The notes below the pieces were generated by a model. The model was not told where the DNA came from. It saw nothing but the letters and a program-made list of their open reading frames with translations, and ran no database searches. A stretch of 21,028 nt of DNA, taken from positions 1 through 21,028 of the IMG/VR virus record IMGVR_UViG_3300006751_000177; one strand, 5' to 3'. This stretch comes from a virus. Both the position numbers and the translations under genes were made by a program. The stretch's first letter is position 1. Each line of letters begins with the position of its first letter. Below are positions 9,699 to 16,527 of the stretch, one piece after another.

Positions 9699-9770
9699 TT
9701 ATATTTTTATTATTATTTTAAATTTCTTCCAACCTATCTCTATTATTAATCTTCCTATTCTCCACTTCAT
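9699..9770 (-). CDS. Possible 23-residue basic microprotein
   Basis: An ATG overlaps the stop of the preceding gene as TAATG (9772-9768), the same junction used by several true genes here. The frame runs 23 codons to a TAA at 9701-9699, 16 bases before the next start. The product is alternately hydrophobic and basic (MKWRIGRLIIEIGWKKFKI and so on), an amphipathic cationic pattern. The underlying DNA is very AT-rich, so chance is a serious alternative. Confidence 0.3.
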   Translation of the reverse strand: MKWRIGRLIIEIGWKKFKIIIKI

Positions 9771-10318
9771 TAATATCCTGCCCCTACTCTTGTTGCAGGA
9801 ATGTTACAAGTTTGGAAGTCGTGCATTACTTTAACTCCTAAATTGAACACCCATCCACAGCATAAATTGTCAAATCTTTCTTGGAATGGGTCTATTGTAA
9901 ATTGATCTTGTGTGAAATAAATAGCGTGATTAATATCATCAACACCTTCTATTGATTGTAGTGTACTATGCCTTAATATCCCTATAATATCGGTTGCTAT
10001 TCCTAGTGTTTGATTCCATACTTGCTGCTCGTTGTTTTTAGGGTCAACCAATTTTGTAAGTCCTTCTGCTTGATATGTTTGCCAATTTTCTTTTTCAGAT
10101 ACCATATCCATGATAAAGATTTGAAAGTTGTAAACAAGTTCTGATTCTCCTGTTGATACATTAACGGGGTTTATGTGCATTAAAACAAACTTAGTTTCTT
10201 TATTAATATCAATATCGTATATATCCCCAACTGATACTGTGGCTATTTGTTCATGATATTCCCCTATTCTACTCAGGGTATTAATTACATTGTTATAGGT
10301 CTTATTTGGTACTGCCAT
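9770..10318 (-). CDS. Tail-terminator/tail-completion-like protein
   Basis: This 182-residue protein begins MAVPNKTYNNVINTLSRIGE and contains a strand pair VGDIYDIDINKETKFVLMHI, then VYNFQIFIMDMVSEKENW, a helix with QVWNQTLGIATDIIGIL, and a C-terminal GWVFNLGVKVMHDFQTCNIPA. The order of helix, paired strands, 'F.IFIMD' strand and 'D...I...L' helix matches what I recall of small Bacteroidota phage proteins placed with tail terminators. Those cap the tail tube at the head end. The start lies within the predicted -1 frame extension of the chaperone gene (17-base overlap), suggesting coupled translation. The family name is uncertain. Confidence 0.5.
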   Translation of the reverse strand: MAVPNKTYNNVINTLSRIGEYHEQIATVSVGDIYDIDINKETKFVLMHINPVNVSTGESELVYNFQIFIMDMVSEKENWQTYQAEGLTKLVDPKNNEQQVWNQTLGIATDIIGILRHSTLQSIEGVDDINHAIYFTQDQFTIDPFQERFDNLCCGWVFNLGVKVMHDFQTCNIPATRVGAGY

Positions 10319-11080
10319 GTTTTACTTTATTTTGTGATTCTAAATCTGTTTCATAACTTAGCCAAGTTAGGCACTCTAAAAGGTTAAGTTTTGTTATTGT
10401 ATCTAACTTTGAAATATCTGCATTTGTTAATCTATACATCACCCCGAACCAACTCCACTTATCAGCAAAAGTTTCTGTTGCTATTGCGTCTTCATTTCCT
10501 TCAGCGTTTCCATCAAATATGATTGCATAATCGGCACAAATTCGTTTCCTAAATTGTAAAAAAAAACCAGCGCTGATTGCACTTGCTCTGCTGACATCTT
10601 CTTCATCTCTTCTGCCCTCATGGCTATCTCCCCATCATACGCTTCAATAGTATAGACCTCATTCTTTTCTTTAATTATTGGTCTATAAAGAACTGCCATT
10701 AACTCAGGCATATTCTTATCAATATCATTCTTAATAAAGGTTTCAATATCTGCATACTCCCCCAAACTTATTGAACTCAAATCAGGATGAAAGCCGTACC
10801 TTTTGCCATCTATTTCAATTATCCTTTTTAAAGAACTATCTTGTTTAGTTTGAAGCTGTGATACTTTACTTAGTATAACTGCTACATCTTTTAACTCCAA
10901 TTGCTTTATTAAGTCTTTTGGAATGTTAGATAATTCTTCTATTGTTCCTAATGCCTCACTACTCTTTGTGCCTTCCTGAAAATCAATCAGCTTCATCCAA
11001 CTCTCTAGTGTAACATCTTCCCACTTACTGATTAACTTAAACTCCTTTGCCTTTCCCTTCTTCTTGATTTTAATCTTCAT
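10302..11080 (-). CDS. Predicted -1 frameshift product of the tail assembly chaperone
   Basis: The zero-frame chaperone gene contains nine consecutive T on the coding strand (10566-10558), read GTT TTT TTT TAC. A -1 slip there enters a frame open from 10559 to a TAA at 10304-10302, adding 85 residues after residue 174 (about 259 in total). The added part includes NAEGNEDAIATETFADKWSW and GVMYRLTNADISKLDTITKL, which look like a real helical domain. It has no ATG before the Met in GVMYRL, so an independent start is unlikely. Codon third positions in this stretch are AT-rich like the neighbouring genes. This mirrors the G/GT arrangement of siphovirus tail chaperones. The slip is inferred; an uncounted base in the T run would instead fuse the frames. 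Confidence 0.6.
10481..11080 (-). CDS. Tail assembly chaperone (zero-frame product)
   Basis: This 199-residue protein has a basic start MKIKIKKKGKAKEFKLISKW, then ITxxSW-like residues (WEDVTLESWMKLIDFQ), a middle segment YGFHPDLSSISLGEYADIET (about 94-113) and a helical C-terminus with KNMPELMAVLYRPI. These blocks match my recollection of a widespread Bacteroidota phage protein encoded early in the tail operon. The overlapping -1 frame extension supports a chaperone that helps load the tape measure. It ends in TAG. It lies seven genes before the tape measure rather than next to it, which is unusual. The chaperone role is inferred. Confidence 0.6.
   Translation of the reverse strand: MKIKIKKKGKAKEFKLISKWEDVTLESWMKLIDFQEGTKSSEALGTIEELSNIPKDLIKQLELKDVAVILSKVSQLQTKQDSSLKRIIEIDGKRYGFHPDLSSISLGEYADIETFIKNDIDKNMPELMAVLYRPIIKEKNEVYTIEAYDGEIAMRAEEMKKMSAEQVQSALVFFYNLGNEFVPIMQSYLMETLKEMKTQ
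10558..10566 (-). promoter_or_regulatory. T9 slippery run, candidate -1 frameshift site
   Basis: Nine consecutive T on the coding strand contain the in-frame heptamer T TTT TTT, a classical X XXY YYZ slippery sequence. It lies 25 codons before the zero-frame TAG, and the -1 frame behind it is open for 85 codons. I did not identify a clear downstream pseudoknot by eye. Confidence 0.55.
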
Positions 11081-11164: not shown

Positions 11165-11197
11165 GGGGTTGACTTAGGTCGCCCCTTCTTTTTTATT
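11165..11197 (+). terminator. Hairpin followed by T-rich tract, plus-strand orientation
   Basis: On the plus strand GGGG (11165-11168) and GAC (11171-11173) pair with GTC (11178-11180) and CCCC (11182-11185) around a TTAG loop, with a small internal loop. TTCTTTTTTATT follows. This looks like an intrinsic terminator for plus-strand transcription. On the minus strand the same hairpin lies just after the large terminase stop but lacks a U tail. The remaining 11081-11164 stretch shows only AT-rich leader sequence. Confidence 0.5.
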
Positions 11198-12395
11198 GCA
11201 CAAAATACTTCCCTGCATTAGGATTGTCTAAATGGTAGATAATGTTATAACGAATTGCATCTATTGCATGGTTGTAATTGTCAATGTATAATTTTGACCC
11301 CCTATCTTGATAGGCATAGTTGTTCAGCTCTTTAGCTATATTAGTTGATTCAGGAGTTACTACTAAGTGATAATCTTGCATTCTAGTTATGCCACTTTCA
11401 ATAGTTCCTTTCTTTACAGGTTTAATGTTTACGCCTAAATGTTTTAAGTCTGCAATAAGTCTAGGTTCTGCACTATCAGCTATGATTAACTTATTATCTA
11501 CTTTGTCTAGTATTATTTGAGCAAGTTCATGTGACTTTAAACCATTCCTATATATGTGTTCTTTTAAATATATCTTTTGTTTCTTTTTATCAATAGCTAC
11601 TTCAGTAAGACTGTCAGGATCAATACTGAATCCAAAGTCCATTCCACAAGAAGTTTGAAGCCCATCAGGATTAAATTCTCCAATACTCCAATTGTCAAAT
11701 ACTACACCCTCAGCTTTGTCTAACCACCCCCCTAAGATTTTATGAGTGTACTTCTTAAAGTTGTTATGCTTTATAGTCTTAATACGCTCTAGGAAGCTCT
11801 GTGAGAGATTATCTTTATTGTCTAGGTATGTACTGTGTATATAACATACATTGTCTTTAACGCCATTAAAACCCCCCTCTATTCCTTTGCTCTCAAAGAA
11901 TCTGTCATATATCCAATGCTCTTTAGTTACAGGATTCAATATAAGTATGATCCTATTCTGTATATTCTTTTCTCTAATGCTAAGGTCTATTGTATCAAAT
12001 ATATCTTCATCAATTAATTCTTCTGCTTCATCAAGAATCCAATTAGACACCCCTGTTAAAGACTTTAGACTTGCTGTCTGATTTCCTGCTGAAGTCTTTA
12101 TACCTCTAAATAGAATATCGGACTTATTCTTTAAGTTTACTACTTCAGCTTTGTTTATGCTAAATATATTCTCATATCCCAAAAGCCCTATCTTTTCTAA
12201 GAACTCAGGAATGATTGATAAATGGGCTGACACCATTGTGTATCTTGTAAACAATACCCTGATGTTTCTTGACATTGTTAGTAGTGTTAGAAAGACTGTA
12301 ACAGCATAAGACTTCCCTGACCCCCTACCGCCTGTTATTATGAAATAACGGCAGTCAGATTCAAATAAGGGATTGTATTTCTTACTCAGTATCAG
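11193..12395 (-). CDS. Terminase large subunit (Terminase_3/PBSX-like), probable CTG start
   Basis: The DNA-packaging motor. The ATPase motifs are Walker A GGRGSGKS (residues 22-29 from the proposed start, about 12332-12309), Walker B WILDEAEE and the coupling segment ILILNPVTKEHW. The nuclease acidic residues lie in CGMDFGFSIDPDSL, LIIADSAEPRLIADL and NHAIDAIRYN. The first ATG (12275) lies after Walker A, so it cannot be the true start. The frame is open back to a TAG just before AAA CTG ATA CTG AGT, with no ATG, GTG or TTG. CTG at 12395 gives a 400-residue protein starting (M)ILSKKYNPLFESD, a normal length. It overlaps the small terminase gene by 14 bases. Confidence 0.85.
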   Translation of the reverse strand: MILSKKYNPLFESDCRYFIITGGRGSGKSYAVTVFLTLLTMSRNIRVLFTRYTMVSAHLSIIPEFLEKIGLLGYENIFSINKAEVVNLKNKSDILFRGIKTSAGNQTASLKSLTGVSNWILDEAEELIDEDIFDTIDLSIREKNIQNRIILILNPVTKEHWIYDRFFESKGIEGGFNGVKDNVCYIHSTYLDNKDNLSQSFLERIKTIKHNNFKKYTHKILGGWLDKAEGVVFDNWSIGEFNPDGLQTSCGMDFGFSIDPDSLTEVAIDKKKQKIYLKEHIYRNGLKSHELAQIILDKVDNKLIIADSAEPRLIADLKHLGVNIKPVKKGTIESGITRMQDYHLVVTPESTNIAKELNNYAYQDRGSKLYIDNYNHAIDAIRYNIIYHLDNPNAGKYFVQ

Positions 12396-15873: not shown

Positions 15874-15932
15874 TCTTTGAGTTTATTAATTATAAATAAA
15901 ATTATTGCAGTTATTATTACCCACCCTATCAT
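15870..15932 (-). CDS. 20-residue single-span membrane microprotein
   Basis: The frame reads MIGWVIITAIILFIINKLKE and stop. Its ATG (15932-15930) overlaps the TGA of the gene before it (15931-15929), and its TGA (15872-15870) overlaps the ATG of the next gene (15873-15871). Both junctions are perfect ATGA couplings, as used throughout this operon. The product is one hydrophobic helix of about 15 residues with a basic C-terminal end, so it should insert in the inner membrane. Without it the two flanking genes would be separated by an unexplained 55-base gap. Function unknown; a small membrane regulator or superinfection-related peptide is possible. Confidence 0.6.
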   Translation of the reverse strand: MIGWVIITAIILFIINKLKE

Positions 15933-16291
15933 TTGATGAGTTTTAAAGGTTCTTGATAAAAAGGCACATTCTTTTGCCCTAAAGTGTGTACTTGATGATA
16001 AGCATCATCTACTACTTTCTTGTGAACATAAACCCACCTGTAAAAAGTTCTGATATTTAAAAAGGGTTCTTCTTTCCCAAATCTTACTCCAAGTCTAAAA
16101 GCATCTTCAATTTGATTAAAGGTCATATTGCCAAAGCGTTTTTCTTGTATTAAATCTTGTGCAAATATCTTACTTAATGTTGCCATTGTATTTGCATCTG
16201 TTTTATGTCCTATCTCTACTGAAGTCTTTGCTACTAAGTCTAAGACCTTTTCAGTTAATTCTTTAAGTGTTTCGTTTTTTAGTGGTTTCAT
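15929..16291 (-). CDS. Phage hypothetical protein, replication region
   Basis: This 120-residue protein has an N-terminal helical half (MKPLKNETLKELTEKVLDLV) and a C-terminal block FNQIEDAFRLGVRFGKEEPF followed by LNIRTFYRWVYVHKKVVDDA. I recall the 'F..I..AF..GVR.G....F..I...T.YRW' pattern from Bacteroidota phages. The position right after the helix-turn-helix replication gene suggests an accessory replication role, such as a helicase-loader-like protein, but no motif proves it. It has ATGA overlaps on both sides. Confidence 0.55.
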   Translation of the reverse strand: MKPLKNETLKELTEKVLDLVAKTSVEIGHKTDANTMATLSKIFAQDLIQEKRFGNMTFNQIEDAFRLGVRFGKEEPFLNIRTFYRWVYVHKKVVDDAYHQVHTLGQKNVPFYQEPLKLIK

Positions 16292-16527
16292 TTTTTTTTA
16301 TTTATATGATATTCAATATCAAAAATAGTATCTTTTATTAATTTTTCTTCATCAAATTTATTAAAAAATAAATCATCAACTAATTCATCTAACTCATAAC
16401 CATCTTCATTTTGTATTATGTCGGGCATCATACCATTAACATACCATCTTGATATTATATTTAACACCTGCATTTCAGTTAGCCCTAAATCTTCTATGAT
16501 ATTTTCATTATATTCTAATTCTTTCAT
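16288..16527 (-). CDS. Small acidic hypothetical protein
   Basis: This 79-residue, strongly acidic protein begins MKELEYNENIIEDLGLTEMQ, with EDGYELDELVDDLFFNKFDE in the middle and a basic tail (INKKK). ATGA overlaps join it to both neighbours. The acidic nature might suit a DNA mimic or a partner of the replication protein upstream, but that is speculation. No family recognised. Confidence 0.55.
   Translation of the reverse strand: MKELEYNENIIEDLGLTEMQVLNIISRWYVNGMMPDIIQNEDGYELDELVDDLFFNKFDEEKLIKDTIFDIEYHINKKK

Follow-up and report, generated by a model that had tools for sequence, protein, structure and literature searches.

A conserved run of nine or ten T and predicted programmed -1 recoding of a tail-chaperone-like gene in aquatic tailed phages

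The viral stretch analyzed here (IMG/VR record IMGVR_UViG_3300006751_000177; all of its 21,028 nucleotides are referred to as the window) carries on its minus strand a gene in which nine consecutive T lie where the zero-frame ORF overlaps a second, open frame shifted by -1. Such an arrangement raises the question of whether a single gene yields two proteins by a programmed slip and, if so, whether the ribosome or the RNA polymerase slips. It is well known that -1 frameshifting occurs in tail assembly chaperones (Xu, Hendrix and Duda 2004, as cited in PMC5009743 and PMC10885494). The features of the locus are as follows.

10481..11080, minus strand: zero-frame ORF of 199 aa, the putative short (G-like) form; from the ORF list
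10558..10566, minus strand: T9 run (GTT TTT TTT TAC in the zero frame), the putative slip site; by direct reading
10559..10565, minus strand: in-frame slippery heptamer T_TTT_TTT within the T9 run; by direct reading
10302..10559, minus strand: -1 extension of 85 sense codons plus TAA, a putative T-like domain; by reading and alignment
10481..10557, minus strand: overlap coded in both the zero and -1 frames; by reading and from homologues

The T run and its conservation

Direct reading of the minus strand around the run gives GCG CTG GTT TTT TTT TAC AAT TTA. The zero frame, whose protein has a beta/alpha N-terminal part followed by helices, stops at a TAG (10483-10481). The -1 frame stays open across the run and closes at a TAA (10304-10302); its earliest ATG encodes the Met of GVMYRL at codon 42, next to a GTG at codon 41. 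The original prediction had described nine T at 10566-10558 with the heptamer in frame, as well as an 85-codon open -1 frame reaching 10302 with no ATG before the Met of GVMYRL, and both descriptions were confirmed by this reading. Within the window, neither a T9 run nor such a junction is remarkable: three T9 runs were observed in this AT-rich sequence versus 5.5 expected from dinucleotide shuffles, and several other gene junctions also carry, by chance, overlapping ORFs with an in-frame heptamer. Therefore, the case depends on homologues.

Viral contigs were searched with the zero-frame protein, an alignment, gene 40 of Nonlabens phage P12024L and a distant relative (L156) as queries, and two further searches covered genome contigs and phage records, respectively. 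The resulting sample comprises 266 usable loci, 204 of them distinct over the compared stretch, from many metagenomes and a cultured phage, P12024L; protein identities range from nearly complete down to about 25%. The T run is present in all 204 distinct homologues (T9 in 188 and T10 in 16, none shorter) and in all 113 non-redundant representatives, again as T9 or T10. It is followed by a -1 ORF of 82-94 codons in every homologue with a complete end. The codons around the run vary (GTT..TAY/TGG/TGC, CTT TTT TTT TTC/TTA/TTG, TTT TTT TTT GTN, and CGG TTT TTT TTT GCT), and the heptamer T_TTT_TTT is in frame in every register observed. In the T10 loci the flanking codons differ, by which the -1 relation is kept. 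Parsimony on a quick tree of the 113 representatives suggested 13 register changes of the run, including T10 forms and forms displaced by one codon, and never a run below nine. Moreover, all 80 matches to the synonym-blind pattern GTN TTY TTY in the loci kept consist entirely of T (T9). Elsewhere in the same genes none of five Phe-Phe pairs is written TTTTTT and only 34% of Val codons are GTT. No T run of at least nine was present in the 343 kb of 467 further ORFs from these loci, with 0.3 expected. Conserved in this way among homologues, the run stands above chance.

The main alternative named beforehand was a T run miscounted during sequencing or assembly within one fused gene. Homopolymers are indeed prone to such errors, but the same -1 relation is found in 266 of 266 loci (204 distinct) from many metagenomes and the cultured phage, and the zero-frame stop always lies 18-87 codons past the run. 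The two frames are continuous in no homologue, P12024L and the T10 loci included. A miscount is thus refuted, and we give it next to no probability.

Selection on both frames and the missing start codon

Selection was assessed as dN/dS from 374 gapless pairs. Before the run, dN/dS was 0.115 in the zero frame. After the zero-frame stop, it was 0.197 in the -1 frame versus 1.26 and 2.18 in the other two frames, and this low value indicates that the -1 extension encodes genuine protein sequence. Within the overlap, values of 0.315 in the -1 frame and 0.83 in the zero frame were obtained, the latter reflecting weak constraint. Purifying selection acts on the zero-frame protein and on the -1 extension, each in the frame that encodes it. 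The zero-frame tail, being weakly constrained and variable in length, appears mainly to need to stop. Alignment of the extensions revealed a strongly conserved pattern, FxxKWGWxxxxYxLxxxDIxKxxxIT...CLxxLxYExD. Both predicted products are thus kept in the homologues.

The extension could also be a gene of its own, translated from a separate start. This is how genes 40 and 41 are annotated in P12024L, where the extension contains an ATG. However, 105 of 112 representatives carry no ATG in the interval from the run to the conserved KW motif (seven have one), and 99 of 112 carry no ATG, GTG or TTG there (13 have some start codon). As most homologues lack a start there, the extension is not a separate gene; moreover, conservation of the -1 frame begins at the run, and a separate gene would leave the T9 run unexplained. 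These comparative data refute the separate-gene reading for the family, and we regard it as highly improbable.

The pair in Nonlabens phages P12024L and P12024S (genes 40 and 41, assigned to phrog_32199 and phrog_38404, respectively) is homologous to that of the window, with the same T9 run, the same -1 relation and the same position after the terminase; the two genes are annotated as hypothetical proteins and are about 29% identical to the window pair.

With both frames under selection and the extension mostly without a start, the comparison supports the -1 slip in a two-product gene put forward in the original prediction. Programmed -1 recoding by itself appears near certain, and recoding of a gene that is specifically tail-chaperone-like, at whichever level the slip occurs, is very probable. 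On this model, expression from one start would give two proteins. The majority would terminate in the zero frame as a G-like protein of 199 aa, and a minority would slip back one nucleotide on the T9 run and read 85 more codons in the -1 frame, resulting in a G-T fusion protein roughly 260 aa long. The frequency of the slip would set the ratio of short to long form. The G part would coat the tape measure protein, as lambda gpG does, and the T part would recruit tail-tube subunits, as in lambda gpGT.

Protein identity and gene neighborhood

The zero-frame proteins matched phrog_32199 in 47 of 47 sampled homologues and the extensions matched phrog_38404 in 14 of 47; neither family has an annotated function. 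Weak profile matches of the zero-frame homologues to phrog_166 ('tail protein', 10 of 47) and phrog_3140 ('tail assembly chaperone', 1 of 47) were also detected. An AlphaFold2 (AF2) model of the zero-frame protein (pLDDT 88.6) had 3FGX as its best match among solved structures (Z 4.9, rmsd 6.0, 80 of 96 residues); the row after it reached only Z 2.4, and Z values below 8 fall short of proof. 3FGX has been counted among phage tail assembly chaperone structures (PMC9603447). Matches in BFVD include two annotated tail assembly chaperones with weak E-values. Foldseek against the PDB gave no match at E<=0.001, a PDB sequence search with the zero-frame profile returned nothing relevant, and Pfam had no match. 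The extension model was of low confidence (pLDDT 69.5), with no useful PDB match and only unnamed proteins in BFVD. The fold match is suggestive of a tail assembly chaperone; each structure or profile match to a known chaperone is weak when taken singly.

The design resembles that of lambda G/GT, in which a short protein and a -1 fusion with a C-terminal domain are made by a slip shortly before the first ORF ends. Chaperones of the lambda G/GT type are produced at a fixed ratio of the two forms and do not occur in the virion. The two systems differ in the slip site, which here consists of nine or ten T, and in location, as the present pair lies beside the terminase and the lambda pair between the tail tube and tape measure genes. 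Toward the wider lambda G/GT group (HK97 gp13, Geobacillus 3FGX, and B. subtilis YqbN), the weak fold similarity to 3FGX was found and no sequence similarity was detected. The pair is probably tail-chaperone-like by design, and we do not claim its membership in lambda G/GT by homology.

The gene neighborhood in the window was defined as follows.

11193..12275, minus strand: terminase large subunit, directly upstream of the chaperone pair; from PHROGs
9770..10318, minus strand: next gene, a conserved neighbor without assigned function, starting inside the end of the -1 ORF; from the ORF list, with the same order in relatives
1710..3485, minus strand: tape-measure-like gene on the same strand as the chaperone pair and 6.8 kb downstream of it; from PHROGs

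The window terminase is 65% identical to that of P12024L/S. The host is probably a member of Bacteroidota, because P12024L infects a flavobacterium and the terminase resembles those of Riemerella phages. Genes for G/GT chaperones usually lie between those for the tail tube and the tape measure; here, the pair instead adjoins the terminase large subunit gene (TerL) in the window, P12024L, L256 and L284. In L284 (1183-14932), the order is terminase, chaperone pair, neck-like, tape measure, protease, capsid-like and tail-tube-like genes. This order is unlike that of lambda, with the chaperone distant from both the tail tube and the tape measure (the capsid and tail-tube labels were assigned by eye).

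The conserved place beside TerL, the distance from the tape measure and putative tail tube genes, and the lack of a Pfam match would all suit a pair whose slip is programmed but whose products serve another step, for example packaging. The architecture, the -1 domain and the best fold match point to tail chaperones instead, and another role appears unlikely. Thus, the tail assembly chaperone of the original prediction draws on the architecture, on the -1 domain and on fold and profile matches that are weak, and the gene lies outside the usual position.

Several additional observations were made on this and related genomes. The tape-measure-like gene (3485 to 1710) is broken by a single in-frame TAA at 2741-2739 on the minus strand, where relatives L156 and L284 have glutamate; L155 is also uninterrupted. 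This TAA may be either a single-base error or a genuine nonsense mutation. A coding-strand A9 run at 16291-16299 overlaps both the stop codon that ends ORF 16288-16527 and the start codon of ORF 15929-16291; it probably represents an A-rich leader at an ATGA overlap. When Riemerella phage RAP44, Olleya phage Harreka_1 and Bacteroides phage BS-TP2 were scanned for a similar junction, apparently ordinary gene overlaps only were seen. In Flavobacterium phage 6H (L281, 10047-10927), gp10 resembles the fold neighbor R9VW65, to which it was matched by length. Beyond gp10 lies an unannotated stretch in another frame, the junction has no T run longer than T6, and at least two frames seem broken there, possibly by sequencing error.

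The level of the slip and its significance

Two levels of slippage could generate the predicted pair. In the ribosomal version, two Phe-tRNAs would slip in tandem on U_UUU_UUU. In the transcriptional version, the RNA polymerase would stutter on T9 so that some mRNAs carry U10 (or U7); these would be translated unshifted into the -1 ORF, and U9 messages would give the short form. We lean slightly toward the ribosomal slip, since well-studied chaperones of such design use it, and rate it a little above even; the transcriptional slip is rated somewhat below even. This weighting is a matter of judgement rather than of computation.

Stimulators of ribosomal slippage, such as a downstream structure or an upstream Shine-Dalgarno (SD)-like element, are common and not obligatory. 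No ribosomal stimulator was found here: the mean z of downstream RNA structure was near 0 at every offset past the run (by minimum free energy, pseudoknots being outside the method), and SD-like 4-5-mers upstream were present in just 10 of 204 homologues, which agrees with the transcriptional version. In E. coli, U_UUU_UUU is a weak site that shifts far less readily than A_AAA_AAG (PMC5009743). The lambda ratio of short to long form is about 30:1 (PMC5009743), which demands a low shift rate only and thereby makes the absence of a stimulator less weighty.

The length of the run also bears on this choice. The frame junction carries nine or more A or T in a row, as transcriptional slippage requires, in 204 of 204 homologues, and the run is never shorter than nine, though a ribosomal heptamer needs only seven. 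Four inferred losses of a T after the run are all accompanied by TTT before it, restoring nine; the direction is the expected one, and four events are too few for significance. Part of this constancy may come from the outer two T, where both frames encode hydrophobic residues (V/L/I/F before and Y/W/C after the run in the zero frame; Leu in the -1 frame), a partial explanation for these T. We consider that the universal run of at least nine T would fit transcriptional slippage about as well as ribosomal slippage.

Furthermore, A runs are avoided in other ORFs, with observed/expected ratios of 0.90 for A7, 0.66 for A8, 0.29 for A9 and 0.15 for A10. In the 467 nearby ORFs, A runs of at least nine are about 3-7 times rarer than in synonymous shuffles, with a sharp fall from A8 to A9. 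Selection against slippage becomes evident at nine A or T in many bacterial genomes (PMC1088944). However, replication slippage can also account for such avoidance. The constant length of at least nine, the avoidance of A runs and the nine-nucleotide threshold together make RNA polymerase slippage a serious rival to the ribosomal slip.

Nine identical A or T at a frame junction, with two products per gene, are also found in Thermus thermophilus dnaX and Shigella mxiE; in those genes, which do not encode tail proteins, the level of slippage has been established by experiment, whereas the window gene is known from its sequence. Thermus thermophilus dnaX (A9) slips transcriptionally and E. coli dnaX ribosomally, reaching the same outcome at another level. 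For tail chaperones, the literature searched, with subscription papers mostly outside it, yielded neither a poly-T site of this kind nor transcriptional slippage, and the established cases are ribosomal. It is quite possible, if short of probable, that aquatic, probably Bacteroidota-infecting, tailed phages make a chaperone pair by RNA polymerase slippage on T9/T10.

At either level, programmed recoding would explain phrog_32199 and phrog_38404, two families without assigned function, as the two products of a single gene. The phages with a conserved frameshift would thereby gain a large aquatic group, in which we found no such site described. The finding is also a warning for annotation, as the gene gets split or missed, as in P12024L. 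The unbroken T9 run offers a clean test case for the control of tail length by transcriptional versus ribosomal slippage. If RNA polymerase slippage is true, the same two-product design would arise at transcription rather than at translation.
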